Below are positions 18,149 to 61,490 of a stretch of 64,000 nt of DNA, one piece after another. Every line of letters starts with the position of its first letter. The stretch's first letter is position 1. The translations under genes were made by a program, and so were the position numbers. The notes beneath the pieces are model-generated. The model saw nothing but the letters and a program-made list of their open reading frames with translations. It was not told where the DNA came from and ran no database searches. Source of the stretch: Bacteroidales bacterium (GTDB taxonomy: Bacteria; Bacteroidota; Bacteroidia; Bacteroidales; Marinilabiliaceae); contig JAKSLD010000003.1 in assembly GCA_024401395.1 (NCBI GenBank), forward strand, positions 124,001 to 188,000. The letters are read 5' to 3'.

Positions 18149-18219
18149 GTCCTATATAAGTCCTATATGCGTCCGATGTGCGTCCAATGAGAGTCCTTGT
18201 TCATCGTAATTTTTTTATT
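18149..18219 (-). repeat. Dispersed leader + 11-bp array element, copy B
   Basis: On the minus strand an A-rich tract and the leader (ATTACGATGAACAAGGAC, 18193-18210) are followed by GGAC tetramers. In plus coordinates the GTCC motifs begin at 18149, 18160, 18171, 18182 and 18193, an exact 11-base spacing five times running. The element starts 48 bases after the response-regulator stop and ends about 65 bases before the GH2 promoter. Confidence 0.85.
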
Positions 18220-18267
18220 TTGGATGAACGGACAAAGAAGAAAAAAGACAGACGTTGGGACCTTTGA

Positions 18268-18900
18268 CTACAGTTGGAGGATACCTCTGCGGATAGCGTA
18301 TCTTACCAATGCCACATTGTTATTGATACCCAACTTTGTAAAGATATTAGTCTTATGAGACTCGACGGTACGGATAGAGATATTCAGCTGGTCTGAGATA
18401 TCCTTAGCGCGCAAGCCCTCGCAACACAGACGGATAATTATTTTTTCGCGCTCACTGAGGTCGATGTGCAATTCAGAAGAGTTACAGACATCGCGAATCA
18501 AACGTGCGATATCCTTAGCGAAATAAGTACCCCCATTAACTATCGTATTTATAGCCGTCAGCAATTCATCGGTTGGGGCATTCTTACTCACAAAACCCTC
18601 TACGCCTATTTCGGTAAGACTCAATATAGTAGGTTCAGAAGACTCGGCAGAGAGCATAAGAATCTGTATATTCGGGTGTTCGGCGCGTAATTTCCTAGCG
18701 ATATCCACGCCACTGATATCTGGGAGGATGATATCGAGGAGAGCCAGTTCAGGTTCCTTATCCAATGAATCCAGTTTAGAGAAAAACTCCTCTCCAGAAG
18801 CGGCTTGAGCCACCACGTTATACTCAGGTTGCGAACCGAGGACCATTGTTGTTCCCATACGGAACAAATCGTGATCATCTACTATAATTATGTCTATCAT
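18268..18900 (-). CDS. NarL/FixJ-type response regulator
   Basis: A 210-residue two-component regulator. The receiver domain (about 1-120) has the acidic pair in VDDHD, the phosphorylation site Asp56 in LLDIILPD, and the conserved switch-region SKNAP lysine. A LuxR-type helix-turn-helix occupies about 145-205 (LSEREKIIIRLCCEGLRAKDISDQLNISIRTVESHKTNI). It should be phosphorylated by the TPR histidine kinase encoded 67 bases upstream on the same strand. The regulon is unknown; the neighbouring GH2 gene is one candidate but has its own promoter. Confidence 0.93.
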   Translation of the reverse strand: MIDIIIVDDHDLFRMGTTMVLGSQPEYNVVAQAASGEEFFSKLDSLDKEPELALLDIILPDISGVDIARKLRAEHPNIQILMLSAESSEPTILSLTEIGVEGFVSKNAPTDELLTAINTIVNGGTYFAKDIARLIRDVCNSSELHIDLSEREKIIIRLCCEGLRAKDISDQLNISIRTVESHKTNIFTKLGINNNVALVRYAIRRGILQL

Positions 18901-18967
18901 CTTATTTACTGAGAATAGGCAATTGGCAATTAAGAATTGTCCTTATGCGTTGGGTTATTATTATTCG

Positions 18968-20929
18968 TTATGCTTTAGGGAGATATATTCTGAAGGTAGT
19001 TCCGACGCCCTGGGTACTAGTGCCCTCTATTTTACCCTTATTAGCCTTAGCCATATCGAGGCAGACGGCAAGGCCAAGGCCACTACCCTGTTCGCCTGCG
19101 GTACCCTTCATAGAGCGAGAATGCCCCTTAGTGAAAATACTCTCCAGCATATCAGGCGGCATACCGATACCCTTATCGGCTATAACAAGGACTACCATAT
19201 TACCAGACACCTCGTAGTCGAAAGATATAGAACCACCCTTGTGAGAGAATTTGATAGCATTCGATACTATATTACGCACGATGATTGATACCATATTATT
19301 ATCGGCGAAGATGAAAATACCTTTTGCATCAGGGATGACAAATGATATATCCTTAGCCTTAGCCTGAAGAGCGAGGAACTCCGTAACATCAGTTACCGTG
19401 CCACAGATATCCATCTTTGAAGGTTCGAACTGCATACGGCCCATCTGGAGGCGAGTCCAGTTGAGGAGGTTATTGAGCAAATCGACCTGTACGACAGCAG
19501 ACTTATGCAAATCCGAGTAAGTTTTCTTCAGCTGTTCCTTAGGGAGAGACTCCCCATAAGTAGCGAGAAGCTGGAGAGCATTACATTGAGCTATAGCAGG
19601 ATTCTTGAGGTCGTGAGAAATAACCGAGAACAATTTATCCTTAGTATCATTCGTCTCCTTCAGTTCCTCGTTACGTTGACGCTGAATCCTCAGCATAGTA
19701 AAAGACTGAGAAATGATTATCAAGAGAAGAACGGCGAAGATACTGATACCCACGATAGTGATATAATGCACACGTTCGTTACGAGCCTTCTCTTCAGCAA
19801 TGAGCTGCACCTCGCGGGCACCCTTCTCGCGCTCGTAGTTGACACGAGTATTCAAGAAACTATTATTCTGGCGTTCATTCTGCACACGATTAGAGAACTC
19901 CTTAGACTGCTGGAGGTAATTCAAGGCACGAGTAGGATTATTGTTACCCTGTTCGTATTGAGCTAGAAGAGCGCAAGCAGTCTCAGCCTGTTCGGGAGCA
20001 TCAATCTCGATAGCCACCCTATAGGCATCAGAAAGCAACTCAGCAGCCTTTTGCTTATTACCCAAGAGCATTTCGACGCGACCCAGAGAGAGGCAAGATA
20101 CCAGCCAATGCCAGCGGTCGGGGTCATTCAGAAGGATATCATAGCTTAACTGGTACTGGACGCGGGCAGAATCAATCATTTCGCGCTTCTCATATATTTC
20201 GCCCAGCGCGTTATAGCATAGAGAGATACCCACGGTAGAATTAGCCCGTTTATTGTGTGCCATAGAGTGGCAATAGTATGCGAAAGCAGAGTCATACTGC
20301 TCCTCATAGCTGAATATAGAACCGATATTAGCGAGGTTGATAGCCTGGCCGAGGTCGCTACCGAGAGAAGTCTCGATAACCATAGCTTCGCGGAAATAAT
20401 ACTTAGCCTCCTCGTAGTATTTAAGAGTGAGGTCTATATTACCGATACCATTAAAAGCTATAGTCTTATTCTTTCGGGCAGCGCTACTAGACTTATCAGA
20501 AAACTCATCAGCCAACTGAAGGGCCTTGTAGTGGTATTGCGTTGCCTCGCCCAAAGAACCTATGCGGCGGAAGTTAGTAGCCAAGTCATTCAAGGCCTTA
20601 GTCATCTCTATGGTATCGCTAATAGCCTGAGCCAAGGCGAAAGTCATCTGACATTGGGATATAGCATCAGAGAAACGAGATGCGTGGCGATAAGAAGAGG
20701 CTATGAGACGTGAAGCGATGACATTCTTGACAGAGATAGAACTGATGGTGTCGCAGGCATAGCGCTCTATTTCTGGTTGCGATGCGCCTTTGAACTCAGC
20801 TTCCGCTGCTTTTCTTTCCTCCTCGGTGACTGGGGCATATTCCACGGGTGTAGAACAAGAGAAAAGAGACAGCAGCAACAGGCTACATAGGGACAGATAT
20901 CTCCATATATTTAAAAAGTAGTTTGCCAT
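18968..20929 (-). CDS. TPR-containing sensor histidine kinase with lipoprotein-like N terminus
   Basis: A 653-residue sensor. It begins with a hydrophobic signal and a lipobox-like LFSC (Cys25). An extracytoplasmic set of tetratricopeptide repeats follows (about 70-345; for example ALGEIYEKREMIDSARVQYQ). A transmembrane helix lies at about 389-410, then a HisKA dimerisation helix with phospho-accepting His439 in SVISHDLKNP and a HATPase domain with the N box (IVRNIVSNAIKFSHKGG), G1 (DKGIGM) and G2 (GSGLGLAV). It is paired with the LuxR-type regulator downstream. This architecture recurs in Bacteroidetes; TPRs probably bind a protein or peptide. Lipid attachment together with an internal helix is not settled; the N terminus may instead be a simple anchor. 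Confidence 0.9.
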   Translation of the reverse strand: MANYFLNIWRYLSLCSLLLLSLFSCSTPVEYAPVTEEERKAAEAEFKGASQPEIERYACDTISSISVKNVIASRLIASSYRHASRFSDAISQCQMTFALAQAISDTIEMTKALNDLATNFRRIGSLGEATQYHYKALQLADEFSDKSSSAARKNKTIAFNGIGNIDLTLKYYEEAKYYFREAMVIETSLGSDLGQAINLANIGSIFSYEEQYDSAFAYYCHSMAHNKRANSTVGISLCYNALGEIYEKREMIDSARVQYQLSYDILLNDPDRWHWLVSCLSLGRVEMLLGNKQKAAELLSDAYRVAIEIDAPEQAETACALLAQYEQGNNNPTRALNYLQQSKEFSNRVQNERQNNSFLNTRVNYEREKGAREVQLIAEEKARNERVHYITIVGISIFAVLLLIIISQSFTMLRIQRQRNEELKETNDTKDKLFSVISHDLKNPAIAQCNALQLLATYGESLPKEQLKKTYSDLHKSAVVQVDLLNNLLNWTRLQMGRMQFEPSKMDICGTVTDVTEFLALQAKAKDISFVIPDAKGIFIFADNNMVSIIVRNIVSNAIKFSHKGGSISFDYEVSGNMVVLVIADKGIGMPPDMLESIFTKGHSRSMKGTAGEQGSGLGLAVCLDMAKANKGKIEGTSTQGVGTTFRIYLPKA

Positions 20930-20950
20930 ACATCAGTTTATACCCGGTGG

Positions 20951-20958
20951 CAAAGATA
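20951..20958 (-). promoter_or_regulatory. Putative -7 box for the kinase/regulator operon
   Basis: TATCTTTG on the minus strand, 22 bases upstream of the kinase ATG. No convincing -33 element. Confidence 0.55.
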
Positions 20959-21010
20959 CTAAAGTTTTTTTGATTTATTAACATATACTATTATGCTATG
21001 CTGATGGAGT

Positions 21011-21047
21011 AAAAAAGAAACGCAAGCCGATTTGGGACCGGCCTGCG
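21011..21047 (-). terminator. Terminator downstream of mscL
   Basis: Arms CGCAAGCCG (21021-21029) and CGGCCTGCG (21039-21047) pair with one mismatch. An A-rich run at 21011-21020 gives a U tract on the minus-strand transcript. It ends the long operon that starts at pepP, or at least the mscL transcript. Confidence 0.75.
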
Positions 21048-21076
21048 CTATATTGAGATAATTGAGAAAATCCAGA

Positions 21077-21490
21077 TTACTTATTCTTGAGCAAATCACG
21101 AATCTCTGTAAGGAGTTTCTCCTCGTTGCTTGGTTCTGGAGCTGCTGGAGCAGGAGCCTCCTCCTTCTTCTTCTCTGTGAGCTTAGAGATAATACGGATT
21201 ACCATAAAGATAGAGAATGCGATGATGAGGAAATCGAATGCAGTCTGAAGGAAGTTACCATAATTAAGAGTAACAGCGTCTGCACCGTCCTGAGCCTCTT
21301 TGAGAGTAATTTTGAGGTCAGAGAAATTCACGCCACCGACGAGCAAGCCGATAGGAGGCATAATAACATCCTGTACGAGAGATGTAACGATTTTACCGAA
21401 AGCGCCACCGATAATAACACCGACTGCCATATCGACAACGTTGCCCTTCATTGCGAAGTTCTTAAAGTCCTGGAGAAATTTTGAAGCCAT
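21077..21490 (-). CDS. mscL: Large-conductance mechanosensitive channel
   Basis: A 137-residue inner-membrane channel that opens under high membrane tension to release solutes during osmotic downshock. The family signature is present ([20 protein letters not shown] at 8-27, followed by [19 protein letters not shown]). TM1 is at about 20-45 and TM2 at about 80-105. The cytoplasmic C terminus is charged and alanine/proline-rich ([15 protein letters not shown]) before the final helix. It lies after repeat element A and before a strong terminator. No clear promoter was found directly upstream, so it may be transcribed through from the operon above. Confidence 0.96.
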
Positions 21491-21562
21491 ATATTAAATC
21501 TGTTTTTGTTTTTTACCGCGTGTGTCCATTTATATGTATGAAAAGGGCAAAAGGTTGCAGAC

Positions 21563-21627
21563 AGAAGATACGGGCTAGGTATACGCTAGTATAAGGGAAG
21601 TATAAGCTTGCTCGCAAATTTTTTATT
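21563..21627 (-). repeat. Dispersed leader + 11-bp array element, copy A
   Basis: On the minus strand the leader AATAAAAAATTTGCGAGCAA is followed by four 11-base units: CTTATACTTCC, CTTATACTAGC, GTATACCTAGC, CCGTATCTTCT (plus coordinates 21563-21606). The A-rich part of the leader contains the stop codon of the ProX-like gene (21623-21625), so the element starts exactly at that gene's end. The leader variant matches copy D. Confidence 0.82.
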
Positions 21628-22222
21628 CTTCGTCCAGATGGACGATGATAGGTTCGTGATGGATAGCAGGGAGAATCTTCTCCGTTAAATCCTTGATTTT
21701 GAGGCGAAGACTTGATGTATTCATACAAGGATGGCATCCCACCATCTCACTTTGCAGCACATCCTCGTCAATGAGTAACTGAACGGCATTCTCGTGGTCG
21801 TTCATAAGGCCCAATACAGAGACCGAGCCAGGTCGGAGGTCGAGATATCTGAGCATAAGTTCCTCACCGGCGAAAGACAAGCGGGCCGAATTAATCTGCT
21901 GAGAAAGGAGGCGAGTAAGGAACTTCTTATCGCCCGGCATCATCAAGAGGTAGAACTTAGTCTGCTGTTTATTAGTCAAGAAAAGATTCTTACAGATGAT
22001 AGGGTGGCCAGACCTATTATCATCTGCTGCCTCCTTGAAAGAATGGAGCGGCAAGCGTTCGAATGCGGCATCAATCTCGGCGCAAATCTCCATAGTCATA
22101 GCAGGTTCGTGATCAAGTCGGTCGTATTCGATAGACAAGCTATCGAGAAGATCATACACCCTGATTTCGCGAGGTTCGCGAGAAGAGCAATCGGCTGGTC
22201 GGCCGTGAAAGATAGTCAACAT
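21623..22222 (-). CDS. YbaK/ProX-type aminoacyl-tRNA deacylase (prolyl-tRNA synthetase-associated domain)
   Basis: A 199-residue free-standing editing-domain protein. The family hydrolyses mischarged tRNA, typically Ala-tRNA(Pro), in trans. The YbaK-type core includes HEPAMTMEICAEID, CKNLFLTNKQQTKFYLLMM with the conserved lysine, and RPGSVSVLGLMND. The C-terminal segment SEMVGCHPCMNTSSLRL matches the ProX end of the fold. Substrate specificity is inferred from family membership. It is 15 bases after the upstream barrel gene and belongs to the pepP-to-mscL gene run. Its stop codon lies inside repeat element A. Confidence 0.85.
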   Translation of the reverse strand: MLTIFHGRPADCSSREPREIRVYDLLDSLSIEYDRLDHEPAMTMEICAEIDAAFERLPLHSFKEAADDNRSGHPIICKNLFLTNKQQTKFYLLMMPGDKKFLTRLLSQQINSARLSFAGEELMLRYLDLRPGSVSVLGLMNDHENAVQLLIDEDVLQSEMVGCHPCMNTSSLRLKIKDLTEKILPAIHHEPIIVHLDEE

Positions 22223-22237
22223 AACAATTGATTTGCT

Positions 22238-23461
22238 TTATCTACGTTTCTTTTTCTTAGGGACCACACCCATACGGATATTAGTCTCCTTGTATTGTTT
22301 ACCATCGAAAGAAGAGAATACACCGATATGGAAAGCATCCAGGACATTAAGGAGTTCGTAACCTACCTCGGTGTATATCTTATCCCTTTGGGCGGTATAG
22401 ACATTAGAAACAACAATAGACTCACCCAAGAAGAGATAATTGAAAAAAGGAATATTAAGCAGCAATAACCTATCCTTGAAAAGGCGGAAAGAAGAATCGA
22501 CGTGCCAGTCGTTAGTTGAGAGAGCGTATGGGTACTGCGCCACCAAGCCAACGATACCAGTCCTCTGGTCGCGCACAGGAAAAAACTTCTTAGAAGTCTG
22601 GAAATGGTACCACTCGTGAAAAGAGAGATTATCAACATTGTGCCCTACAAAGAAACCAGCATTGATTTTCCAGTGAAGCATATCAAACTTTGAACGACAG
22701 ACAGTCTGAGAGAGAGTCAACTCGGGGTGCAAGACACGGACGTGATTGATATATCTTACATTGATATTCAGCGAAGGAGACACATCCTCCTGACCGAGAG
22801 AGAAGCCACCAGAAAAAGAGAATGCAGACACTCCAGAGCGGGAATTAAGGACGCGGACGCTATCAACATATTCATTATCAGGGACATTAGGTCGATATTC
22901 GCGACCATACCTTACAAAAGAAAAAGTGCTGTTATTCTCCATCGGTTCAATATCATAACGGTCGTATGATAGTCCAACATAAGAAGATTCAGACGGTCTA
23001 TATGTATAGGACGAAGAAAAATACATCTTATCCACCAGAACCTTAAAATTCTTATGGGCGAAGAGAGCCGAATAAGTATTCTTGAGCCAGCGCATCTCGG
23101 TACAAGAATCACGTTTCCAATCGTGCAACTCCCTACCGGCGGTCAGCGTTATACTATGTCTGTTATTCAGATTGAGGTTCAGGGCCAGTTCAGGTTCAAA
23201 AATATGAGGCAAAAAAGCATATTGAACCCTCAACGCCGTAGACAAGACGACATCAGTATCGGGAATAAAAAAGAAATTGACAGACTCCTGAAGATCGAGA
23301 CCATTAACCGGATGAAAGCGAAGATTGTCCTCCTTAAGGATATCATAACAGAAAGAAACCTTAGGAGACAATGATACTGTATCACACAAAATTCGACCAT
23401 CGGCATATATAAAAGATGTCGATATCAGCAAAAAATATATGATACCGATCAGTCGTCTCAT
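22238..23461 (-). CDS. Predicted outer-membrane beta-barrel protein of unknown function
   Basis: A 407-residue protein with a signal peptide (RRLIGIIYFLLISTSFIYA, about residues 2-20) and long runs of alternating polar and aromatic residues consistent with outer-membrane strands (for example SSYVGLSYDRYDIEPM and GVSAFSFSGGFSLGQE). The C terminus is strongly basic (PKKKKRR). I do not recognise the family with confidence; a distant resemblance to the barrel part of DUF5686 proteins is only an impression. The start overlaps the queA stop by four bases, so it is translationally coupled to queA. Confidence 0.65.
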   Translation of the reverse strand: MRRLIGIIYFLLISTSFIYADGRILCDTVSLSPKVSFCYDILKEDNLRFHPVNGLDLQESVNFFFIPDTDVVLSTALRVQYAFLPHIFEPELALNLNLNNRHSITLTAGRELHDWKRDSCTEMRWLKNTYSALFAHKNFKVLVDKMYFSSSYTYRPSESSYVGLSYDRYDIEPMENNSTFSFVRYGREYRPNVPDNEYVDSVRVLNSRSGVSAFSFSGGFSLGQEDVSPSLNINVRYINHVRVLHPELTLSQTVCRSKFDMLHWKINAGFFVGHNVDNLSFHEWYHFQTSKKFFPVRDQRTGIVGLVAQYPYALSTNDWHVDSSFRLFKDRLLLLNIPFFNYLFLGESIVVSNVYTAQRDKIYTEVGYELLNVLDAFHIGVFSSFDGKQYKETNIRMGVVPKKKKRR

Positions 23462-24657
23462 TGGCGCATCAATAGAGAAGAATCGCCATAAGACAAGAAT
23501 CTGAAATCGTGAGAGAGGGCATAATCATAAATCTTATGCCAATCATCGCCCACAACCGCTGCTATGAGGAGAAGCAGAGTGCTATGAGGCTGGTGGAAAT
23601 TGGTAATAAGACCATCTATAACTCGCAGCGTATACCCTGGAACAATCATAATCTGAGTCGCGCTATGAACCTCATCGAGTTCATTCTCAGAGAGATAATC
23701 CATCAAGGCAGAAAAACTGTCGACCAAAGAGACATTCTGTGGAAGATTATAGGCATCCCATTGAGCGAGGGAATCTATATTCTGGTTCTGGAGGCGCTTC
23801 ACACCCAGCCAATAGAGACTTTCCAGAGTACGCACAGAAGTAGTTCCTACTGCTATAAGTTTTTTACCAGCCTTAGCATTATTGAGAATAGAAAGAATAG
23901 ACTCCTTAGTAACGACGATATGCTCAGAATGCATAACATGATCCTTTACATCGGCAGTCTGGATAGGCTTGAATGTACCGGCACCAACATGAAGAGTAAG
24001 ATTTACCAGTTCGTGTCCATTAGATTTTATCTCATCAAGGACACTATTTGTAAAATGAAGGCCTGCCGTAGGAGCTGCCACAGACCCCTTATGCTCGCTA
24101 TATACAGTCTGGTAGCGCGTATTATCAATATCCTCAGTCTCACGGTTGAGGTATGGAGGAATAGGAGTAACACCAGCGTGTTCGATTATTTCTGCAAAAG
24201 AATAGGCATTATTATTCCAAGTAAAACGCACTATACTAGTATTATCTGCGGAAGACAACCTCTCGGCACTAAGAATTACCTCATCATTACCAATATTGAG
24301 AGTATGGGTAATAAGACCCTCTTTCCATTTCTTGCTATTTCCTACGATACACTTCCACTCAGTAACATCCTTTACGGCGAAAGCCTGCTGGACATCAGAA
24401 GGGAGAGTCGGTTCCAGACAGAAAACCTCGATATTAGCACCAGTAGACTTATGCATAGCGAGGCGGGCGCGTATAACCTTAGTATTATTAAATACCAGCA
24501 TTGCACCTTCAGGCAAATAAGAGCCTACGTTACGGAAGATACTCTCCTCTATATTATGGTTGCGGAAGACAAGTAGCTTGCTAGCATCGCGCTCTGGCAG
24601 TGGATACTTGGCTATTCGCTCATCTGGAAGTTCGTAAGTGTATAACTGTGAGTCCAA
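23458..24657 (-). CDS. queA: S-adenosylmethionine:tRNA ribosyltransferase-isomerase
   Basis: A 399-residue enzyme of queuosine synthesis that transfers and isomerises the ribosyl part of S-adenosylmethionine onto preQ1 in tRNA to give epoxyqueuosine. Motifs include YELPDERIAKYPLPERDASKL at the N terminus, VFNNTKVIRARL, PTAGLHFT, LHVGAGTFKPI and the C-terminal LITNFHQPHSTLL. It is slightly longer than average because of an insert around residues 80-130. It sits between ruvC and a beta-barrel gene in the long minus-strand operon. No other queuosine gene is in the window. Confidence 0.94.
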   Translation of the reverse strand: MDSQLYTYELPDERIAKYPLPERDASKLLVFRNHNIEESIFRNVGSYLPEGAMLVFNNTKVIRARLAMHKSTGANIEVFCLEPTLPSDVQQAFAVKDVTEWKCIVGNSKKWKEGLITHTLNIGNDEVILSAERLSSADNTSIVRFTWNNNAYSFAEIIEHAGVTPIPPYLNRETEDIDNTRYQTVYSEHKGSVAAPTAGLHFTNSVLDEIKSNGHELVNLTLHVGAGTFKPIQTADVKDHVMHSEHIVVTKESILSILNNAKAGKKLIAVGTTSVRTLESLYWLGVKRLQNQNIDSLAQWDAYNLPQNVSLVDSFSALMDYLSENELDEVHSATQIMIVPGYTLRVIDGLITNFHQPHSTLLLLIAAVVGDDWHKIYDYALSHDFRFLSYGDSSLLMRQ

Positions 24658-24685
24658 TGTGAAATGGATTTATGTTGATTAGTGA

Positions 24686-28140: not shown

Positions 28141-28142
28141 TA

Positions 28143-33096: not shown

Positions 33097-34404
33097 TTAC
33101 ATACCTAGTACCTTTGCTTTCAATGCATCAAATTCAGCCTGACTGATGATACCCATATCAAGTAGCTCCTTTGATTTCTTGAGCTTCTCGTATGGATCTT
33201 CTTGCTGAGCTGGCTGTTGTGGCGCTTGGTAGCCTTGCTGATAACCGCCTTGTTGTGGTGGTTGCTGATAGCCTCCTTGCTGTGGATAACCCTGTTGTGG
33301 ATAACCTTGCTGAGGATAACCTTGTTGAGGGTACCCTTGTTGTGGATAGCCCTGCTGTGGATAGCCTTGTGGACCTGTTGGCTGCTGTAAACCGCTGAGA
33401 GCTCCGCCAGCAGCATTCATACCCATGCCCATAAATGCCATGCCGCTGCCACCGCCGTTCTCTCCTGCAGCCTGCATACCTCGTGCTACCGATTGCTGCA
33501 TGAATGAGTTGCCTCGTGCTCCCATAAGAGCATCTGCCTTCTTAACATCGCTGAGCAATGCCTTTGTATCCGCATCGTATTCTATAGATTGGATCGCTAC
33601 CTTCTCTATCTCAAGACCTCGCGTGCTCTTCCACTGGTACGACTGCTCTACTACTGCCGAGAGCGACTTGGCAAAACCTATCTGGTCTCCCTGTATCTTC
33701 GTGATACGGTTACCATGACTAGGATCGTTTGTATACAATGAGAATGCACTCGACAAACTGCTCACTACTTCATTGAAGAGCTGCTCTCCTGCAGGATTGT
33801 CCATGTCTGAGAAGTCAAATACCTTGCCCTCATTGACATACTGCATTGGTACAAACTGCTTGATGAAGAGTATCGGATCTGTAATTCTCAATGTATATGT
33901 ACCTCTTGTCATACAGCCTACCTGAGCATTCAAGTATGCATCATCCCAGTAAATCTCGCTCTGTGTACCGAAACGGTTGTTAGGAATCTCCTTGAGGTTA
34001 ACATACAATGCTAACTGCTGAGAACCTGGCTGACCACCAAACTTGAAACGCTCCCATGTCGACATAATGAGTGTACCGAAAATGCTGTCACCCGCAAAGA
34101 TCGACTTCGCATTTGGGTCACTTGTCGTAAATGTATAACCGCCTGGCTCTGTTACAAGACCTGTGATACCACCATCCTGAAGTGTAATAAGGCCAAAACC
34201 ATCAGGAACCAAAATCTTACTGCCGTTCGAAATGATGCCTTCAGAACCACTCGTATTTGATCCTCTGCCGTTATTCGTGCCCTTTGCTACCGCAGGTATC
34301 ACACCAGCTGTAGCTGGCGCACCAGGCATTGGCATAAGGAAGTCTTTCCACTGATCTGCAAATGTGCCGTCTAGGGCACCAATAAATGCTTTAATAAATC
34401 CCAT
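33097..34404 (-). CDS. SPFH-domain protein (YdjI/virion core-like) with GYPQQ repeats and SHOCT-like tail
   Basis: A 435-residue cytoplasmic protein. The SPFH/band-7-like domain spans about 60-310 (ILVPDGFGLITLQDGGITGLVTEPGGYTF; GTYTLRITDPILFIKQF; RGLEIEKVAIQSIEYD). A glycine/methionine-rich linker, a tandem GYPQQ repeat (about 345-378, six near-identical pentapeptides) and further Q/Y/P-rich sequence follow. It ends in a short helical SHOCT-type motif (DPYEKLKKSKELLDMGIISQAEFDALKAKVL). SPFH proteins form membrane-associated scaffolds; the YdjI branch couples to zinc-ribbon proteins and PspA. It is the first gene of the SPFH / zinc-ribbon / kinase operon. The matching 15-base DNA repeat (about 33270-33375) is coding, not CRISPR. 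Confidence 0.82.
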   Translation of the reverse strand: MGFIKAFIGALDGTFADQWKDFLMPMPGAPATAGVIPAVAKGTNNGRGSNTSGSEGIISNGSKILVPDGFGLITLQDGGITGLVTEPGGYTFTTSDPNAKSIFAGDSIFGTLIMSTWERFKFGGQPGSQQLALYVNLKEIPNNRFGTQSEIYWDDAYLNAQVGCMTRGTYTLRITDPILFIKQFVPMQYVNEGKVFDFSDMDNPAGEQLFNEVVSSLSSAFSLYTNDPSHGNRITKIQGDQIGFAKSLSAVVEQSYQWKSTRGLEIEKVAIQSIEYDADTKALLSDVKKADALMGARGNSFMQQSVARGMQAAGENGGGSGMAFMGMGMNAAGGALSGLQQPTGPQGYPQQGYPQQGYPQQGYPQQGYPQQGYPQQGGYQQPPQQGGYQQGYQAPQQPAQQEDPYEKLKKSKELLDMGIISQAEFDALKAKVLGM

Positions 34405-34498: not shown

Positions 34499-34550
34499 TT
34501 AAAAAATTACGACCAACAAGGGACTTCTTCGAAAGCAGAACGTAACCAGC
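34499..34550 (+). repeat. Dispersed leader element, copy C (array weak or absent)
   Basis: After an A-rich tract the leader ATTACGACCAACAAGGGAC (34506-34524) differs from copy E at two positions and continues with TTC. No clear 11-base units follow, so this copy may be decayed. It lies in the divergent gap between the SPFH and DUF502 genes, upstream of the DUF502 promoter. Confidence 0.65.
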
Positions 34551-34563
34551 ATATACTTTCACT

Positions 34564-34594
34564 ATTGTTTTTCTACTAATAAACACTACCTTTG
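34564..34594 (+). promoter_or_regulatory. Putative promoter for the DUF502 operon
   Basis: ATTG (34564-34567) and TACCTTTG (34587-34594) are 19 bases apart and match the Bacteroidetes -33/-7 pattern. The ATG is 26 bases downstream of the -7 box. Confidence 0.65.
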
Positions 34595-42860: not shown

Positions 42861-42931
42861 TGTCCTATAGTATAATGGTAGTACAGAAGATTCTGGTTCT
42901 TTTAGTCAGGGTTCGAATCCTTGTGGGACAA
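42861..42931 (+). tRNA. tRNA-Gln (anticodon CTG)
   Basis: A complete cloverleaf can be drawn. The acceptor stem is TGTCCTA/TGGGACA, the D stem GTA/TAC, and the anticodon stem GAAGA/TCTTT with loop TTCTGGT (anticodon CTG, reading CAG). The T stem is CAGGG/CCTTG around TTCGAAT. The discriminator base is A and CCA is not encoded. U1-A72 is a known identity feature of tRNA-Gln. Confidence 0.92.
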
Positions 42932-42940
42932 CAACGATAG

Positions 42941-42967
42941 AGACCGAAGAGGTCTTTTCGTTTTTAT
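42941..42967 (+). terminator. Weak hairpin between the two tRNA genes
   Basis: AGACC (42941-42945) pairs with GGTCT (42951-42955), followed by TTTCGTTTTT. It may terminate some transcripts after the first tRNA or be a processing element. Confidence 0.35.
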
Positions 42968-42972
42968 AGGAT

Positions 42973-43043
42973 TGCCCAATAGTATAATGGCAGTACAGAA
43001 GATTTTGGTTCTTTTAGTCCGCGTTCGAATCACGGTTGGGCAA
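42973..43043 (+). tRNA. tRNA-Gln (anticodon TTG)
   Basis: Acceptor TGCCCAA/TTGGGCA is perfectly paired. The D arm is nearly the same as in the first tRNA, and the anticodon stem GAAGA/TCTTT is identical with loop TTTTGGT (anticodon TTG, reading CAA). The T stem is CCGCG/CACGG with one mismatch. The discriminator is A and CCA is not encoded. It looks like an old tandem duplicate of the upstream tRNA-Gln. Confidence 0.92.
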
Positions 43044-44327: not shown

Positions 44328-44392
44328 TTATAAAAATTTGCGAGCAACGACTAGGCTCGCTTATATCTCCCTGTACTCTCTCTTATACTTTA
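44328..44392 (+). repeat. Dispersed leader + 11-bp array element, copy D
   Basis: An A-rich tract and TTTGCGAGCAA (44337-44347) are followed by a small GCGAGC/GCTCGC inverted repeat. Three 11-base units then occupy 44360-44392: CTTATATCTCC, CTGTACTCTCT, CTTATACTTTA. The first unit is almost identical to the first unit of copy A. The array runs into the stop codon of the convergent dehydrogenase gene (44390-44392). Confidence 0.8.
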
Positions 44393-45322
44393 CTTGCCTT
44401 CTATAAATGCTTTGCAGTTCTTTACCGCAATTTCCATGAGCCTCTCTCTGGCTTCTTTCGTCGCCCACGCAATATGTGGCGTAACATAACAGTTCTTACA
44501 CCCTATAAGCGGACTCCCATCTCTAGGTGGCTCTTGCCTCATCACATCAATACCTGCCGCCATAATCTCGCCTCTCTTTAATGCGTCTGCCAATGCGTCT
44601 TCGTCTACTAACCCTCCACGACCGCAGTTGATGACTATAGCTGTCTTTTTCATCAGCCCTAGGGTCTGGGCATTGATTATCTTCTCTGTATCTGGCACTA
44701 ACGGACAGTGTAGCGAAACAACGTCTGCTCTCTTGAACATCTCTTCTTTTGAAACGCTCTCTATCCATCCTGGTAATTCGCTCTTGGAGGTGACTGCTAT
44801 TACTCTCATCCCAAACGCATTGGCTATCTGTGCCGTCGCCATACCTGTATTGCCTAATCCTACTAGTCCTATCGTCTTGCCGGCTAACTCAATGAGTGGT
44901 GTGTCTCTCATGGAGAAGTCGGCATTGGCACCCCACTTCCCTTCATGTACTTGGTTGCTGTAATGGTCTACTCTCTGCGTAATGTTGAGCAAATGGGCAA
45001 ATACCATCTGCGCCACCGACGCTGTTGAGTAAGCTGGAATATTTGTTACAGCAATACCTCGACGGGCAGCTGCTTCAAGGTCAACTACATTCATGCCTGT
45101 AGCTAGTATGCCTATATACTTCATCTGTGGCAACTGCTCCATAATGGTATCATCAATAATGACTTTATTTGTCAATACCATATCTGCCCCTGTACATCTG
45201 GCTACCGTGTCTTCTGGCTTCGTGCGGTCATATACCGTCACGTCTGCTATTTTCTTTAACTCTTCCCACGTAAGGTCTTCTCCCGTAAGGGTATACGAAT
45301 CAAGAACTACTATCTTCTTCAT
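44390..45322 (-). CDS. D-2-hydroxyacid dehydrogenase (hydroxypyruvate reductase/glycerate dehydrogenase-like)
   Basis: A 310-residue NAD(P)-dependent oxidoreductase. The NAD-binding fold has GLVGLGNTGMATAQIANAFG. The catalytic residues are the arginine in NCGRGGLVDEDAL, a glutamate in the DVMRQEPPRDGSPL stretch, and the histidine in YVTPHIAWAT. The family reduces 2-keto acids such as hydroxypyruvate or glyoxylate; the exact substrate is not evident. It follows the CE12 esterase by six bases and is likely co-transcribed with it. Its stop codon lies within repeat element D on the opposite strand. Confidence 0.9.
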   Translation of the reverse strand: MKKIVVLDSYTLTGEDLTWEELKKIADVTVYDRTKPEDTVARCTGADMVLTNKVIIDDTIMEQLPQMKYIGILATGMNVVDLEAAARRGIAVTNIPAYSTASVAQMVFAHLLNITQRVDHYSNQVHEGKWGANADFSMRDTPLIELAGKTIGLVGLGNTGMATAQIANAFGMRVIAVTSKSELPGWIESVSKEEMFKRADVVSLHCPLVPDTEKIINAQTLGLMKKTAIVINCGRGGLVDEDALADALKRGEIMAAGIDVMRQEPPRDGSPLIGCKNCYVTPHIAWATKEARERLMEIAVKNCKAFIEGK

Positions 45323-47474: not shown

Positions 47475-47540
47475 AATAAAAAATTACGATGAACAAGGGA
47501 CTTCTCCGTATCTAGACCGAGTGTAGACTGAGTGCTGATA
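47475..47540 (+). repeat. Dispersed leader + 11-bp array element, copy E
   Basis: The leader ATTACGATGAACAAGGGAC (47483-47501) is taken as the reference. It is preceded by an A-rich tract and followed by TTC. Three 11-base units then occupy 47506-47538: CCGTATCTAGA, CCGAGTGTAGA, CTGAGTGCTGA. It lies in a divergent gap about 70 bases upstream of a promoter. Confidence 0.85.
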
Positions 47541-47612
47541 GGGCCTACAAATGACGAATCTTTTGGATATCTGATATGTATTTTGTTTGGGGTTAAATAA
47601 AATTGCCGCCCT

Positions 47613-54513: not shown

Positions 54514-54580
54514 AATAAAAAATTGCGATGAACAAGGGACTTCCCTTATATTAGCAAAGGACTAGAAATAGTCTTCTAAT
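54514..54580 (+). repeat. Dispersed leader + 11-bp array element, copy F
   Basis: The leader ATTGCGATGAACAAGGGAC (54522-54540) differs from copy E at one base and follows an A-rich tract. GGAC recurs at 54537 and 54559, exactly 22 bases (two units) apart, and AGTC at 54570 continues the register. The array is degenerate. It starts 35 bases after the deacetylase stop codon and ends nine bases before a terminator hairpin. Confidence 0.75.
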
Positions 54581-54588
54581 AAGTTAAC

Positions 54589-54647: not shown

Positions 54648-54666
54648 TACTCATAATCTTGTTAAT

Positions 54667-55716: not shown

Positions 55717-55741
55717 ACCCAAGTAACGAAAATTTCACACA

Positions 55742-57259
55742 GTGCTAGAAATACTTGACACCACATTGCGCGATGGCGAACAGACCGCCGGCGTATCTTT
55801 CAATGCTAACGAGAAACTTACTATCGCAAAGCTTCTCCTCGACGATATTCGTGTCGACCGCATTGAGGTAGCTTCTGCACGTGTATCTTCTGGCGAACTC
55901 GAAGCCCTCAAGAACATCTGCTCTTGGGCCTCCGCAAATGGCTATATCTCTAAGGTTGAGACCTTGGGCTTCATAGATGATGGCGTATCTATCAATTGGA
56001 TCGCCTCTGCAGGTTGTAAGGTTCTTAACCTTCTCTCCAAAGGCTCCCTCAAGCACGTTCAGGGACAACTCCATAAGACTCCTGAACAGCATATCGAGGA
56101 TATCAAACGTAATATAGCGCTCGCTCGTGAACGTGATCTGACGGTCAACATCTATCTGGAGGACTGGTCTAATGGTATGCTCCATTCTCCTGATTATGTA
56201 TTCCAACTGGTCGATGCTCTGCGCCACGAGCCTATCGCTCACTTCATGCTCCCTGATACTCTCGGCGTATTGAGCCCCGACAAGGCTCTTGAATTCTGCC
56301 AGACTATGGTGAAGCGTTATCCTGAACTTAAGTTCGATTTCCACGCTCACAATGACTACGATATGGCTGTGGCTAATGTCTATTCTGCTGTCAAGGCAGG
56401 CATAACTGGCATCCATACCACCGTCAATGGTCTGGGCGAGCGCGCTGGTAATACCCCATTGGCATCGGTTATAGGTCTCCTTAACGACCATCTGCATATT
56501 CCTAACAGCCTTCGCGAGATTCGCCTCACCCACCTCTGCCGTATGGTGGAGTCTATCTCGGGTATCCGAATCCCTGATAATAAGCCTCTCGTGGGCGACT
56601 CTGTCTTTACACAGTGCGCTGGCATCCACGCCGATGGCGACAATAAGGATAACCTCTATTTCAACCAGCTCCTCCCAGAGCGCTTCGGCCGCGTACGTAA
56701 GTATGCCCTCGGTAAGACTTCAGGTAAGGCTTCTATAGCTAAAAACCTCGAGGAACTTGGTATCCATCTTACGCCCGACCAGATTAAGCGCGTGACTCAA
56801 CGTGTCATCGAACTCGGAGATAAGAAGGAGAGCATGACTACTGAGGACCTTCCTTTCATCATAGCAGATGTCCTCAAAAGCGGCGAGGACCGTCATAATA
56901 ATGTTCATATCGTCAACTATAGCCTTACCCTCACTCGCGGACTTAAGCCTGTGGCTACCCTGCGAATTAGCATCCAGGGCAAGGAGTACGAAGCTACTTC
57001 AGCTGGCGATGGTCAGTATGACGCTTTCATGAAGGCCTTGTGGAAAATATACGAGAAACTGGGTCGCGAACACCCTGTCCTCATCGACTATAACGTATCT
57101 ATCCCCCCAGGTGGTAAGACTGATGCCCTGGTCGAAGCTGTCATCGCTTGGCAGTTCCGCGACCAGCATTTCAAGACACGCGGCCTCGACGCCGACCAGA
57201 CTGAAGCAGCTATCAAGGCTACTCTCAAAATGCTCAATATCGTCGAGCCAGAATATTAA
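55742..57259 (+). CDS. Alpha-isopropylmalate synthase family enzyme (LeuA/citramalate synthase-like)
   Basis: A 505-residue Claisen-type condensing enzyme starting with GTG. The HMGL-like TIM barrel has DTTLRDGEQTAGVSF, DFHAHNDYDMAVAN with the metal-binding histidines, and VNGLGERAGNTPLASV. The C-terminal LeuA-type allosteric domain is about 370-505. The sequence LEILDTTLRDGEQTAGVSF and its pairing with leuB suggest the second LeuA-like enzyme of Bacteroidetes leucine operons, which may make citramalate or isopropylmalate. Specificity cannot be decided from sequence alone. leuB follows after 34 bases; leuC, leuD and a first leuA are absent here. Confidence 0.88.
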   Translation: MLEILDTTLRDGEQTAGVSFNANEKLTIAKLLLDDIRVDRIEVASARVSSGELEALKNICSWASANGYISKVETLGFIDDGVSINWIASAGCKVLNLLSKGSLKHVQGQLHKTPEQHIEDIKRNIALARERDLTVNIYLEDWSNGMLHSPDYVFQLVDALRHEPIAHFMLPDTLGVLSPDKALEFCQTMVKRYPELKFDFHAHNDYDMAVANVYSAVKAGITGIHTTVNGLGERAGNTPLASVIGLLNDHLHIPNSLREIRLTHLCRMVESISGIRIPDNKPLVGDSVFTQCAGIHADGDNKDNLYFNQLLPERFGRVRKYALGKTSGKASIAKNLEELGIHLTPDQIKRVTQRVIELGDKKESMTTEDLPFIIADVLKSGEDRHNNVHIVNYSLTLTRGLKPVATLRISIQGKEYEATSAGDGQYDAFMKALWKIYEKLGREHPVLIDYNVSIPPGGKTDALVEAVIAWQFRDQHFKTRGLDADQTEAAIKATLKMLNIVEPEY

Positions 57260-57293
57260 AGCAGAATAATAACATATCACACATTAATAGACA

Positions 57294-58346
57294 ATGGATT
57301 TCAAGATTGCACTTCTCCCAGGCGATGGTATCGGTCCTGAGGTTGTAGACCAGGCTGTTAAGGCCGTTGATGCAGTATGCAAAAAGTTCGGCCATAAGGT
57401 AACATATACTAAGGCTCTCGTGGGCGCTTGCGCTATCGACGCTACAGGTAAGGCTTACCCTGCTGAGACACACGACGTTTGTATGAAGTCTGACGCTGTA
57501 CTCTTCGGTGCAGTGGGCGACCCTCGCTTTGATAACGACCCAACAGCTAAGGAGCGCCCAGAGACAGGCCTCCTCGCTATGCGTAAGCAACTTGAGCTCT
57601 ATGCTAACCTCCGTCCAGTTGAAACTTGGAAGAGCCTCATCAGTAAGTCTCCTCTTAGAACTGAACTCGTAGATGGCGCCGACCTCATCTGTATCCGCGA
57701 GCTCACAGGTGGTATGTACTTCGGTGAGAAGCACGAGGCAGATGATATGGCTTTCGATACTTGTAAGTATACTCGCCCTGAAATCGAGCGTATCGTTGTT
57801 AAGGCTTACGAGATTGCTCGTAACCGCCGCAAGAAACTTACTGTAGTTGATAAGGCTAACGTTCTCGCATCTAGCCGCCTCTGGCGTAAGGTCGCTCAGG
57901 AAATCGCTCCTAAGTACCCTGACGTCGAGACTGATTATATGTTCGTAGACAAGGCAGCTATGGTTCTCATCCAGAACCCTAAGTATTTCGACGTAATGGT
58001 TACTGAGAATACTTTCGGTGATATCCTTACCGATGAGGCTTCTGTAATCGCTGGTTCTATGGGCCTCCTCGCTTCTGCTTCTGTAGGTGTTCATACTTCT
58101 GTATATGAGCCTATCCATGGTTCATACCCTCAGGCAGCTGGCAAGAATATCGCTAACCCTCTCGCAACTATCCTCTCTGCAGCTATGATGTTCGAGACTT
58201 CTTTCGGTCTCATGGCCGAGGGTAAGGCTATCCGCGACGCCGTTGCAGCTTCTATCGACAATGGTATCGTAACAGAGGACCTCGCTGGCAACAACAAGGC
58301 TTACGGTACTAAGGAGGTTGGTGACTGGGTTGCAGCACACATCTAA
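57294..58346 (+). CDS. leuB: 3-isopropylmalate dehydrogenase
   Basis: A 350-residue NAD-dependent oxidative decarboxylase of leucine synthesis. Motifs include [16 protein letters not shown], the GAVGDPRFD segment, [20 protein letters not shown], the [10 protein letters not shown] substrate loop, [16 protein letters not shown], and the metal site in [47 protein letters not shown] closes the domain. Codon use is strongly pyrimidine-ended. It is the last gene before a strong terminator at 58379-58408. Confidence 0.96.
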
Positions 58347-58378
58347 TATTGAACTTTTAACAAAGATTCCAATATTTA

Positions 58379-58408
58379 GGGGGCTATGATTGCATAGCTC
58401 CCTTTTTT
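58379..58408 (+). terminator. leuB terminator
   Basis: GGGGGCTATG (58379-58388) pairs with CATAGCTCCC (58393-58402) with one G-T pair and a four-base loop, followed by six T's. Confidence 0.92.
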
Positions 58409-58412
58409 ATTC

Positions 58413-58420
58413 TACTTTCG
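58413..58420 (+). promoter_or_regulatory. Weak -7 box for the GH97 gene
   Basis: TACTTTCG differs from TAnnTTTG at one base and lies about 44 bases before the ATG. Confidence 0.35.
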
Positions 58421-58463
58421 CAACATAGTTACAAAACAACAAAATTAATTTTCTTATACGCAT

Positions 58464-60374
58464 ATGAAAAATCTCCTCTGTGGGATATCGCTCCTTGGGC
58501 TCCTCTTCTGCTCTTGTGATAATGGAGGCTTGATATCTCCTAATGGTAAAGTTGAAGCATCTATTTGCGAGGATACCAATAATCCTGGTACTTTCTACTT
58601 GTTGACAAATACTCTGGCTGATAGCATCCGTCTTGGATTCAATACTGAAAAAGAGTCTTTTTCCACGGGGTTGTCTCTCATCGGCTACTCTGCCTTTACT
58701 CCAGGTGTGGAGGATTATGTCGTAAAGCATGGTAAGCGACTCCACCCTCATAATGAGTATGCTGAACGTACTTTCAATCTCAAGACTGCAAATAATAAGC
58801 TCCTCGATGTAATAGTACGTGTCTATAACGATGGCTTGACTTTCCGCTACGCCCTCCCTGAGATCGATTCTGTCAAGGTCGTGGAGGAATCAACAACATA
58901 TAATCTCCCGGCTTCGGCCGACCGCTGGCTTATGCCTCTCCACCCTAATAATATGGGCTACGAACAGCCTTTCCCAACTCAACATGGCGTGGAGAAGGAG
59001 AATCAGTGGGGCTACCCTTGTCTTTTTAACTCGGGTGATAAGTGGGCTCTCATCGCTGAAGCTGACATCGATGAGTCTTTCTGCGCTACTCGCCTCGATA
59101 ATAATGGTAAGCATAATAAATACCAGATCGCTCTCCCTCAGCAATGGGAGGCTCGCGAAACTGGTGAGGCTCTCCCTGTCATCGCCGGCAAATGGCAGTC
59201 TCCTTGGCGCGTTGTGGTCAGCGGCTCTCTCGCTGATATCTTCGAGACAACGCTTATAGAGGACGCATCTCGCCCTAGTGTTCTTACCGATGACTCTTGG
59301 GTAAAGCCGGGCCGCTCTGCTTGGGCTTACTGGTCTCATAACCACGGCTCTCTCGATTTCAAGGTTATGTGCTCGTTCGTCGACTTGGCTAAGAATATGG
59401 GTTGGGAATATTTCCTCATCGACTGGGAGTGGGATCGTATGGCTAATGGCGGTAATCTTCAGGACCTTTGTCAGTATGCTCAGACTCAAGGCGTCGAACT
59501 GGCTATGTGGTACAACTCGGGTGGTAATCATACTTGGGTGGATTCTACTCCTAAAGACAGAATGCTCACACACGAGAACCGCGTTGAGGAGTTCACTTGG
59601 CTCAAGTCTCTTGGTATCAAGACTGTAAAAGTCGATTTCTTCGAGTCCGATAAACAATGGATGATGAAGTATTACCTGGATATACTTAAGGACGCAGCTG
59701 ATTATCAGATGATGGTCGACTTCCACGGATGTACTTCCCCTCGCGGTTGGTCTCGTACCTACCCTCACCTTATGTCTATGGAGGGTATATATGGTGCTGA
59801 ATGGTATAACAACCGCGGAGATATGACAATCCACGGTGCTGAGTGGAATACCATCTCTCCTTTCACTCGTAACGTAGTTGGTCCTATGGACTACACCCCT
59901 GTGGCTTTTACTCATTCACAGCACCCTCATACAACAACTAATGTTCACGAACTGGCTCTCGCAACGGTATACGAGAGTGGTATCCAGCATTGGGCCGACC
60001 GACCAGAGGGCTTCTACGCTCTCCCCGATGAGGCTAAGCAGTATATGTCTGCTGTCCCTGCCGCTTGGACCGATAGCAAACTCATCGCTGGATACCCTTC
60101 TACTCATGTAGTCGTAGCTCGTCGCTCTGGCAATAAATGGTACATAGCAGGCATCAATGGTACTGATGAAAATATGCCACTGACTCTGAATCTTTCGCGC
60201 TTAGACTTGTCCTCAAATGCTCATGTCAATCTTCTCATTACAGACGGACCTGATACAGACCCTTCGTGCGGATACCCTAGACCAGAGAATTTCGATATCA
60301 AGACGAATACTACATTGCCTGAATCTGTCTCCTTGGCGGCTCGCGGCGGTTTCGTTATGGTAATAGAGGATTAA
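58464..60374 (+). CDS. GH97 glycoside hydrolase, retaining type (alpha-galactosidase-like), lipoprotein
   Basis: A 636-residue exported lipoprotein with lipobox LFCSC (Cys18). It has the three GH97 parts: an N-terminal beta sandwich (about 25-275), a TIM barrel (about 280-545) and a C-terminal beta domain. The barrel has Asp391 in TVKVDFFESD, which matches the nucleophile of the retaining subgroup, and Glu440 in MSMEGIYGAEW as probable acid/base. The calcium-binding glutamates of inverting SusB-type enzymes are not obvious in the same positions. An alpha-galactosidase role is therefore favoured, but specificity is inferred. It is followed by an exported esterase after 51 bases and may be co-transcribed with it. 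Confidence 0.9.
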   Translation: MKNLLCGISLLGLLFCSCDNGGLISPNGKVEASICEDTNNPGTFYLLTNTLADSIRLGFNTEKESFSTGLSLIGYSAFTPGVEDYVVKHGKRLHPHNEYAERTFNLKTANNKLLDVIVRVYNDGLTFRYALPEIDSVKVVEESTTYNLPASADRWLMPLHPNNMGYEQPFPTQHGVEKENQWGYPCLFNSGDKWALIAEADIDESFCATRLDNNGKHNKYQIALPQQWEARETGEALPVIAGKWQSPWRVVVSGSLADIFETTLIEDASRPSVLTDDSWVKPGRSAWAYWSHNHGSLDFKVMCSFVDLAKNMGWEYFLIDWEWDRMANGGNLQDLCQYAQTQGVELAMWYNSGGNHTWVDSTPKDRMLTHENRVEEFTWLKSLGIKTVKVDFFESDKQWMMKYYLDILKDAADYQMMVDFHGCTSPRGWSRTYPHLMSMEGIYGAEWYNNRGDMTIHGAEWNTISPFTRNVVGPMDYTPVAFTHSQHPHTTTNVHELALATVYESGIQHWADRPEGFYALPDEAKQYMSAVPAAWTDSKLIAGYPSTHVVVARRSGNKWYIAGINGTDENMPLTLNLSRLDLSSNAHVNLLITDGPDTDPSCGYPRPENFDIKTNTTLPESVSLAARGGFVMVIED

Positions 60375-60425
60375 TCTTTAAAGTCATAATGTTTAATAAC
60401 GGACAATTTATCAATATCTCATAAT

Positions 60426-61313
60426 ATGAAAATCTTCACTACCATTACACAATTCCTGACTTGCATTGCCTGTATCTTGGCATTTTGCCCAGCTAATGCA
60501 CAGACCGGCTCTTCTGTCAAGGCTAAATTCGAGTATCATCTCTGGCCTGATGGCGCACCATCTAGCAATGGTATTACTGAGCCAGAGGAGGGCAACCCTA
60601 TGTTTGTCGTCAAGGTAACCGACCCGATTCTTACCGTCTATGTCCCTCAGAATCCCAACGGACTGGCTGTCATCGCTTGTCCGGGCGGCAGCTATTGTCA
60701 GGTATGGCAAGGTACTGAAGGACATAATATGGCCGACTGGTATACAGCTCAGGGGGTAACCTATGCCGTACTCAAATACCGTCTGCCTAATGGCGGTCAT
60801 TATCAAATACCTATGGAGGATGTCCACCGCGCTATGGCTATCATGAAGGAGCATAAAGCCGATTACCCTTTCTCTAAGCTAGGTATCCAAGGGTGCTCTG
60901 CTGGTGGTCACCTTGCATCTACAGCTGCTACGCATTATAGCACAGAGACACGCCCAGATTTCCAGATCCTCTTCTACCCTGTCATATCTTTCAATCCCGA
61001 GTTTACTCACATGGATACTCGCAACGCTCTCATTGGCAACGACCCTAGCGAGGAGCTTGTCAAGCTATACAGCAATGAACTACAGGTTAAGGACGACGCC
61101 CCTCCTGCTATCATTCTCTCAAGTAGCGATGACGGCCTGGTGCCTGTACGCAATAGTGTCGAGTACTACAACGCACTTCTGGCTCACGGCGCATCTGTCA
61201 CTATGCTCCTCTACCCTACCGGCGGTCACGGTTGGTTCGGAAACCCTCGATTCGACTATCGTGAGGCTTGGCTCCAATGTCTCGCCACTTGGCTGAATCA
61301 GCAGGCTAAATAA
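60426..61313 (+). CDS. Exported alpha/beta hydrolase (esterase-like, acetyl-xylan-esterase type)
   Basis: A 295-residue exported hydrolase. The signal peptide ends at about residue 25 (CPANAQ). The alpha/beta fold contains the oxyanion segment IACPGGSYCQV, the nucleophile Ser158 in IQGCSAGGHLAST, the acidic residue near SSDDGLVPVRN and the histidine in YPTGGHGWFGNPRF. Relatives in Bacteroidetes are mostly carbohydrate esterases removing acetyl groups, or general esterases. Its position after the GH97 lipoprotein suggests joint work on a glycan. A strong terminator follows at 61332-61364. Confidence 0.85.
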   Translation: MKIFTTITQFLTCIACILAFCPANAQTGSSVKAKFEYHLWPDGAPSSNGITEPEEGNPMFVVKVTDPILTVYVPQNPNGLAVIACPGGSYCQVWQGTEGHNMADWYTAQGVTYAVLKYRLPNGGHYQIPMEDVHRAMAIMKEHKADYPFSKLGIQGCSAGGHLASTAATHYSTETRPDFQILFYPVISFNPEFTHMDTRNALIGNDPSEELVKLYSNELQVKDDAPPAIILSSSDDGLVPVRNSVEYYNALLAHGASVTMLLYPTGGHGWFGNPRFDYREAWLQCLATWLNQQAK

Positions 61314-61331
61314 TAGCAGCATAGAATTTCT

Positions 61332-61364
61332 AAAGGAGAGCTATACACATAAGCTCTCCTTTTT
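61332..61364 (+). terminator. Terminator after the esterase gene
   Basis: AAAGGAGAGCT (61332-61342) pairs perfectly with AGCTCTCCTTT (61352-61362) over a nine-base loop, ending in a T run. Confidence 0.92.
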
Positions 61365-61418
61365 ATTTGCCCTATTCCGCATTTTCAAATGTTTCATCCC
61401 TCCTGAATAAGCAATACT

Positions 61419-61490
61419 TAATAGAAAAATTACGATGAACAAGGTACTTCACCATAACCTGACCATAACCTGACCGTGACTTCTATATAC
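61419..61490 (+). repeat. Dispersed leader + 11-bp array element, copy G
   Basis: The leader ATTACGATGAACAAGGTAC (61429-61447) differs from copy E at one base. Three 11-base units follow at 61451-61483: ACCATAACCTG, an identical ACCATAACCTG, then ACCGTGACTTC. It lies 55 bases after a terminator and about 160 bases before the regulator's -7 box. Confidence 0.83.

Follow-up and report, generated by a model that had tools for sequence, protein, structure and literature searches.

A clade-specific interspersed repeat with an 11-bp register in a Bacteroidales genome

What kind of element sets the same A-tract, leader, and run of 11-bp units into one bacterial spacer after another? The question is raised by a 64,000-nucleotide stretch (here, the window; positions 124001-188000 of contig C23) of the Bacteroidales genome G000, which comprises 3,303,652 bases in 47 contigs. 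A sequence-only reading of the window had described seven intergenic sites of this shared build, and all seven are present. We find that they belong to a large family that recurs across G000 and in three relatives (G008, G010, and G011) out of 15 congeners including G000, the other eleven being element-free. The family is a clade-specific addition to the small interspersed repeats of bacteria; its helical register is unusually strict, and its function we can only infer. Tentatively, we propose that its arrays are putative platforms for a DNA-binding protein. Detailed analyses of copies cover 864 kb of G000, and scans for family history and for a subfamily cover 1.26 Mb.

Within the window, the leader ATTACGATGAACAAGGGAC has five matches at ≤3 mismatches against 0.01 expected (18192-18210 on the minus strand, 34506, 47483, 54522, and 61429), and across G000 it has 176, with none for a backwards-pattern control. 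The degenerate pattern AAAWYTRCGAKSAACAAGG, allowing no mismatch, occurs 191 times in G000, 56 times in G011, 28 times in G008, and 27 times in G010 (controls, 0) and is absent from the other 67 of the 71 family genomes searched. Outside the genus, the shorter core TTRCGATGAACAAGG gives single matches in 5 of 85 genomes, four of which were inspected (L031-L034) and carry no array; among the matches listed, leaders in two Clostridia-titled records (L061 and L072) are likewise not followed by an array. The family is real and sizeable, and to date it is confined to a single clade, represented by four of the genomes searched.

Column counts over 101 leaders (weight-matrix score >18.5) place A-tract, leader, and array in one common 11-bp register, AAAAWTRCGAK SAACAAGGGAC YTCYCTTATAC YAGMNNNDDHS and onward. 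The order of A-tract, leader, and array given by the sequence-only reading stands, with the amendment that leader and A-tract also belong to the register of the array. A copy consists of the A-tract and two-unit leader (AAAAWTRCGAK SAACAAGGGAC), after which there are usually 2-6 units of the class YWSHNNNDDHS; by a simple class rule, 2-6 further units lie 3' of the leader in 79 of 89 copies (score >24). By eye, arrays often terminate in YWCAAA. The weight matrix recovers 105 leaders in the 864 kb of G000 and 1 in the reversed control. Leader-like matches scoring about 19-24 inside genes, e.g., at 3159 and 36066 of the window in what we take to be ZnuB-like and MetH-like genes, are probably due to chance; they are excluded from counts made at ≥24, and those scoring >18.5 remain among the 101 sequences of the column counts.

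Two leader types do exist, as had been described, but their assignment to sites was wrong: the site at 18.1 kb has the ATTACGATGAACAAGG leader, and the TTTGCGAGCAA sites are those at 21.6 kb and 44.3 kb (exact at 21608-21618 on the minus strand and 44337 on the plus strand). On its own, the TTTGCGAGCAA 11-mer is hardly significant in the window, with 4 matches at ≤1 mismatch where 1.2 are expected, a number equalled in 4 of 100 shuffles. The types GATGAAC and GAGCAAC represent two forms of a single leader, with intermediates that include GACCAAC and GAGCAACAAGG. The array at 34.5 kb, previously called absent or decayed, has the units TTCTTCGAAAG CAGAACGTAAC CAGCATATACT TTCACTATTGT in register and not homogenised (p=0.005).

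The register was measured as lag-11 identity in the 55 bp 3' of the leader, each site being compared with 1000 dinucleotide shuffles. Mean identity is 0.477 at lag 11 versus 0.22-0.26 at lags 9, 10, 12, and 13, and p≤0.01 is reached at lag 11 in 67 of 116 arrays versus 1, 0, 0, and 1 at those other lags. A scan for strong tandem periodicity in the 864 kb finds 48 sites at lag 11 against 0-9 at every other lag from 7 to 19; in the relatives, it yields 11 lag-11 sites in G008 (190 kb), 5 in G011 (255 kb; lag 9 gives 8), and 1 in G010 (108 kb), and across 271 kb of the eleven element-free congeners it finds 3, not above lags 15 or 18. Distances between same-strand leaders less than 400 bp apart are multiples of 11 in 21 of 23 cases, the exceptions being 79 and 89 (binomial p about 3e-20, tandem copies not being independent). 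Whole elements stand in tandem at a spacing of 66, 77, or 88 bp, some of them nearly identical, in keeping with the local generation or homogenisation that the sequence-only reading had supposed. The constant unit length that it proposed is likewise borne out, as are the genome-wide leader excess and the periodicity beyond shuffled sequence on which it had staked its case. A register-shift count made without a control left 172 of 183 copies without a clear shift. Pairwise gapped alignment for indel lengths was set aside as too permissive, only 833 of 17,722 gaps being multiples of 11.

Units within this register are held to a class of bases at positions 1-3. In units 2-4 of G000, Y occupies position 1 in 95-97% of cases, W position 2 in 95-100%, and S position 3 in 91-97%; positions 5-7 are mixed in units 3 and 4, and unit 2 is better conserved throughout. 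All of units 2-4 fit YWS in 76% of 113 G000 elements, 80% of 10 in G010, 52% of 27 in G008, and 24% of 33 in G011, compared to 0.7% of 302 intergenic control windows. The commonest triplets vary by species, with TTC/TAG in G000 and CTC/CAC in G011. The view that units are unlike between arrays is not supported as put forward, since the class is common across arrays, as is a vocabulary that includes CTTATAC, AAGGGAC, and CCGAGTG.

Among 150 control intergenic windows without a leader, 6 were periodic at lag 11 and none at lags 10 and 12; these were followed up and gave a leaderless subfamily, a result that cuts both ways. Far from leaders, 29 intergenic lag-11 sites are found in the 1.26 Mb versus 9, 8, 3, and 6 at lags 9, 10, 12, and 13, and by eye, most are arrays of TTCTCTTAACG CTCTCTTAACG CTCCCTTAATA CAGACACTACC that have no leader and keep the same register and class. 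The subfamily pattern matches G000 at 65 places and G010 at 22, overlapping units included; it occurs in none of the other 13 congeners and nowhere in the window. In all, 42 loci were inspected, e.g., L122:8522, L131:16482, and L236:9942. At a few subfamily loci, we observe TTTAGATAACT 5' of the array and TTATCTAA 3' of it.

Sites are distributed nearly as the supply of spacers would predict. After de-duplication (score ≥24), 95 G000 sites comprise 44 in tandem, 26 in divergent, and 10 in convergent spacers, 8 inside called genes, and 7 at stretch ends. Among the spacers that reach 100 bp, 198 are tandem, 65 divergent, and 44 convergent, so that divergent sites are somewhat over-represented. 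The sequence-only reading had orientation usually following a neighbouring gene, which is not supported by the 44 tandem-gene sites, where the leader runs along the genes in 18 cases and opposite in 26. Leaders do favor the C-rich strand (63 of 95; p=0.002), an excess that may reflect a replication- or transcription-linked strand bias.

Comparison of orthologous spacers, made over the fetched part of the relatives with N-gapped pairs dropped, shows sites that are partly shared and partly empty. Against G011, 220 spacer pairs have a leader in both genomes in 2 cases, in G000 only in 2, and in neither in 216; against G008, the 52 pairs divide into both 1, G000 only 1, G008 only 1, and neither 49; against G010, the 34 pairs divide into both 1 and neither 33. 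The leader at 47480 is kept in G008 and G011 although the surrounding spacer aligns poorly. No leader lies between the orthologous genes of G008, G010, and G011 at 44334, where the 991-bp G011 spacer aligned only in part; the weak G000 leader at this site scored under the cut-off, and the site was left out of the lag-11 shuffle test. Element ends could not be placed at empty orthologous sites because intergenic DNA is too diverged. Among 121 G000 copies, identical arrays are found in tandem or with a shared flank and never as a pair with unrelated flanks; where flanks are unrelated, arrays are at most 91% identical. Taken together, these comparisons indicate a family that is common to the species and turns over, with no recent burst within the 1.26 Mb covered.

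Some copies lie inside genes. In the window, the seven intergenic copies are joined by an eighth at 517, in frame. The first set held 12 in-gene matches, of which four same-strand ones, all in frame, look genuine (in BioG-like, ComEC-like, HrpB-like, and PPIC-type genes); a further high-scoring match (L133:8580) falls within 20 residues of the start of a reading frame that has no relative at the loci compared and is not counted as in-gene. HrpB carries an in-frame element in G000, G010, and G011, the last with another leader type and array and broken by an N gap. Ten other matching congeners are without the element, nine by an alignment gap of 11 residues (three units) and one by a gap of 10, with extra 1-3-residue gaps nearby; G008 and G014 gave no HrpB match. 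The BioG-like genes of G000 and G011 differ by 16 residues, which is not a multiple of 11. In G011 (L212, L201, and L217), runs of 10 N stand inside two genes where G000 carries an element, one of them shortly 3' of a leader, and the repeats may break the assembly at those places.

What, then, could the family be? The arrays match the anatomy of 11-bp direct-repeat protein sites, and we therefore favor, at somewhat below an even chance, a clade-specific interspersed repeat of modular build, with arrays that are putative platforms for a DNA-binding protein making one contact per turn. Such a protein would touch the DNA on one face at every helical turn along the array, with the leader as its nucleation site and a longer array loading more protein copies. 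Units would come and go through local duplication, entire elements would duplicate in tandem, and copies would occasionally reach new places. The strict register argues for this proposal, as do the class held while the letters are nearly free, the leaderless subfamily that keeps both register and class, and the leader kept at orthologous places amid poorly aligning DNA and in frame in HrpB; selection may be what makes register and class persist. If true, the family would amount to a direct record, in the genome, of a protein reading DNA once per turn, in which the unit is the helical turn and class and phase are kept as letters change between species, and the leader with phase-broken controls would be a concrete handle for fishing out such a protein.

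Several observations weigh against a binding platform. No binding protein for the arrays was found, and the leaderless subfamily means that a leader is not always needed. The class fit is weakest in G011, where the second-best phase (+4) is nearly equal (0.73 versus 0.75), and the class bias could in part go back to a shared ancestral unit and not to selection. The evidence from orthology rests on few sites. Copies gained or lost between species, near unrelated genes, would suit a selfish repeat equally well.

That selfish repeat, which we rank second and regard as quite possible if doubtful, would be a non-autonomous, BOX- or MITE-like element with no host function, its 11-bp array a by-product of slippage that started from a single ancestral array, and its register inherited, not selected. 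High copy number, presence and absence at orthologous places between species, placement close to the intergenic supply with its modest divergent excess, copies inside genes, local tandem duplications, and the two G011 assembly gaps at or near copies all speak for it. The absence of any sign of a recent burst among the 121 copies speaks against it, and freely drifting units would not be expected to show so sharp a class bias at positions 1-3 in each of four species. Moreover, no cognate transposase was identified, and no terminal inverted repeats were seen in the columns around the 101 copies or in pairwise comparison, to which no dedicated inverted-repeat search was added. In phage and plasmid records, one 91-bp element has no match at E≤0.1, and two IMG/VR leader matches are without arrays.

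In a more ambitious form of the binding proposal, which we think rather unlikely, a dedicated protein would nucleate at the leader and assemble one protomer per turn at about 200 sites, making the family a nucleoid-organising or centromere-like code with class and phase fixed and the letters left free. A chromosome-wide code of this sort is without description in the literature searched.

It is improbable that the 11-nucleotide spacing is read in the transcript, as by an attenuator, a Rho-loading site, or a small RNA. The elements are intergenic and strand-specific, the arrays are richer in C (26%) than in G (18.5%), and 11 is also the pitch of A-form RNA. On the other side, fold energies are near those of shuffles on both strands (mean z of -0.63 on the plus and -0.66 on the minus strand over 89 copies, with 12-13% of copies below -2), which gives no structure signal, and a scan of the window with Rfam at the gathering threshold found only two tRNAs and no match at the sites. 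Both orientations to genes occur, and whereas Rho prefers YC dinucleotides, some arrays (the CAGAACGGACG type) have none.

Mobilisation of REP-like elements by RAYT or another single-strand transposase is largely refuted and very improbable: RAYT-like genes are present in G000, G008, and G010, but gene presence does not track the repeat, and no palindrome was noticed in the element. No RAYT-like gene was found in G011 (91% complete; 56 leaders), G002-G006 and G014 have such genes and no leaders, and 20 RAYT loci of about 2-4 kb each hold no leader. Because a search of the 15 genomes with PF01797 (Y1 transposase) missed the RAYT-like gene of G008, it was repeated with that protein. Nor was a link to a reverse transcriptase found, which the sequence-only reading had suggested looking for: PF00078 has two members in G000 and one each in G008 and G010, was not found in G011, and is also present in four element-free genomes; the reverse-transcriptase loci L276-L278 hold no leader. 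Those at L277 (G000 contig C10) and L278 (G010) we take to be enzymes of diversity-generating retroelements, L277 with what is presumably a C-type-lectin-like reading frame beside it. At L276 (G008), the reverse transcriptase adjoins a RAYT-like transposase gene.

Table 1. Copies of the repeat in the window, with strand, leader, array, and lag-11 test.
Feature	Position	Strand	Leader	Array and context	Lag-11 p
In-gene copy	517..571	+	AAAATTGCGAG CAACAAGGGAG	Weak array inside PPIC-type isomerase gene (76-1878), read in frame as KIASNKG...	0.64
Element	18137..18213	-	AAAATTACGAT GAACAAGGACT, preceded by A-tract	CTCATTGGACG CACATCGGACG CATATAGGACT TATATAGGACT TTCAAACTACC; lag-11 match 0.73	0.001
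Element	21556..21621	-	GCGAGCAA type	TTCCCTTATAC TAGCGTATACC TAGCCCGTATC TTCTGTCTGCA	0.088
Element	34503..34568	+	AAAATTACGAC CAACAAGGGAC	Heterogeneous in-register units	0.005
Element	44334..44388	+	GCGAGCAA type	Abuts 3' end of convergent gene 44390-45322	
Element	47480..47556	+	Consensus	Leader also at orthologous place in G008 and G011	0.001
Element	54519..54584	+		Leader-less orthologous place in G008; another leader type in same G010 intergenic region	0.014
Element	61426..61491	+		Exact ACCATAACCTG units	0.005

As had been noted from the letters alone, no mobility genes accompany the copies in the window (Table 1): among 26 window proteins, including the gene on each side of all seven sites, Pfam identifies no transposase, integrase, or cas gene. 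The genes beside the sites are ordinary, namely, glycoside hydrolase 2, a LuxR-type response regulator, MscL, a tRNA-editing domain protein, an SPFH protein, DUF502, RecA, a 2-hydroxyacid dehydrogenase, KAS III, one without a family, a polysaccharide deacetylase, RibD, a BD-FAE hydrolase, and a periplasmic-binding/AraC protein. Other repeats were also seen. A 15-bp tandem repeat at 33275-33370 in an SPFH-type gene encodes GYPQQ repeats, two similar tandem tRNA genes lie at 42861-43043, and another dispersed repeat with GAATTAGGAATTA or GAATTCCTA motifs stands near some elements at L009, L014, L015, and L025.

Small interspersed repeats are common in bacteria, and no named element of the present structure was found in the open-access literature searched, as the sequence-only reading had anticipated; the element serves as a marker that has to date turned up only within a single clade of a Bacteroidales genus. 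A leader followed by an array is shared with CRISPR, from which the family differs in its contiguous 11-bp units without spacers and in that the scan of 26 window proteins turned up no cas gene. Another comparison is BOX of Streptococcus pneumoniae, whose modules are much longer than 11 bp. As far as the available text of the source describes it, BOX combines end modules with a variable number of tandem inner modules, sometimes overlaps genes, and has low current mobility (PMC3049150), and the present family resembles it in all of these respects as a modular interspersed repeat; BOX also has terminal inverted repeats and a predicted fold (PMC3049150), whereas the present family has 11-bp units, gives no fold signal, and has no inverted repeats that we noticed. 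Rickettsia palindromic elements likewise have in-frame copies within genes (PMC10969869), but in that account they are about 150 bp long and palindromic, whereas the copies described here are shorter, mostly intergenic, and, as far as noticed, not palindromic.

The remaining likeness is to protein-binding direct repeats, again as far as the accessible text of each source goes. CarH binds 11-bp direct repeats of the form nnnnTnnACAn from one DNA face (PMC9304148), the bind locus of RepB of pMV158 consists of three 11-bp repeats with the protein domains on the same side of the DNA (PMC9943647), ParR of R1 requires a pair of 11-bp repeats (PMC9426499), and AfsR uses two (PMC10936776). The feature looked for in this comparison, direct repeats of 11 bp in tandem with only a few positions conserved in each unit, is found in the family: it shares the direct repeats with all four systems and the small number of fixed bases per unit with CarH. 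In those accounts, two to about five repeats serve one operator, origin, or centromere; here, the same anatomy recurs in about 200 dispersed copies with strongly diverged units.

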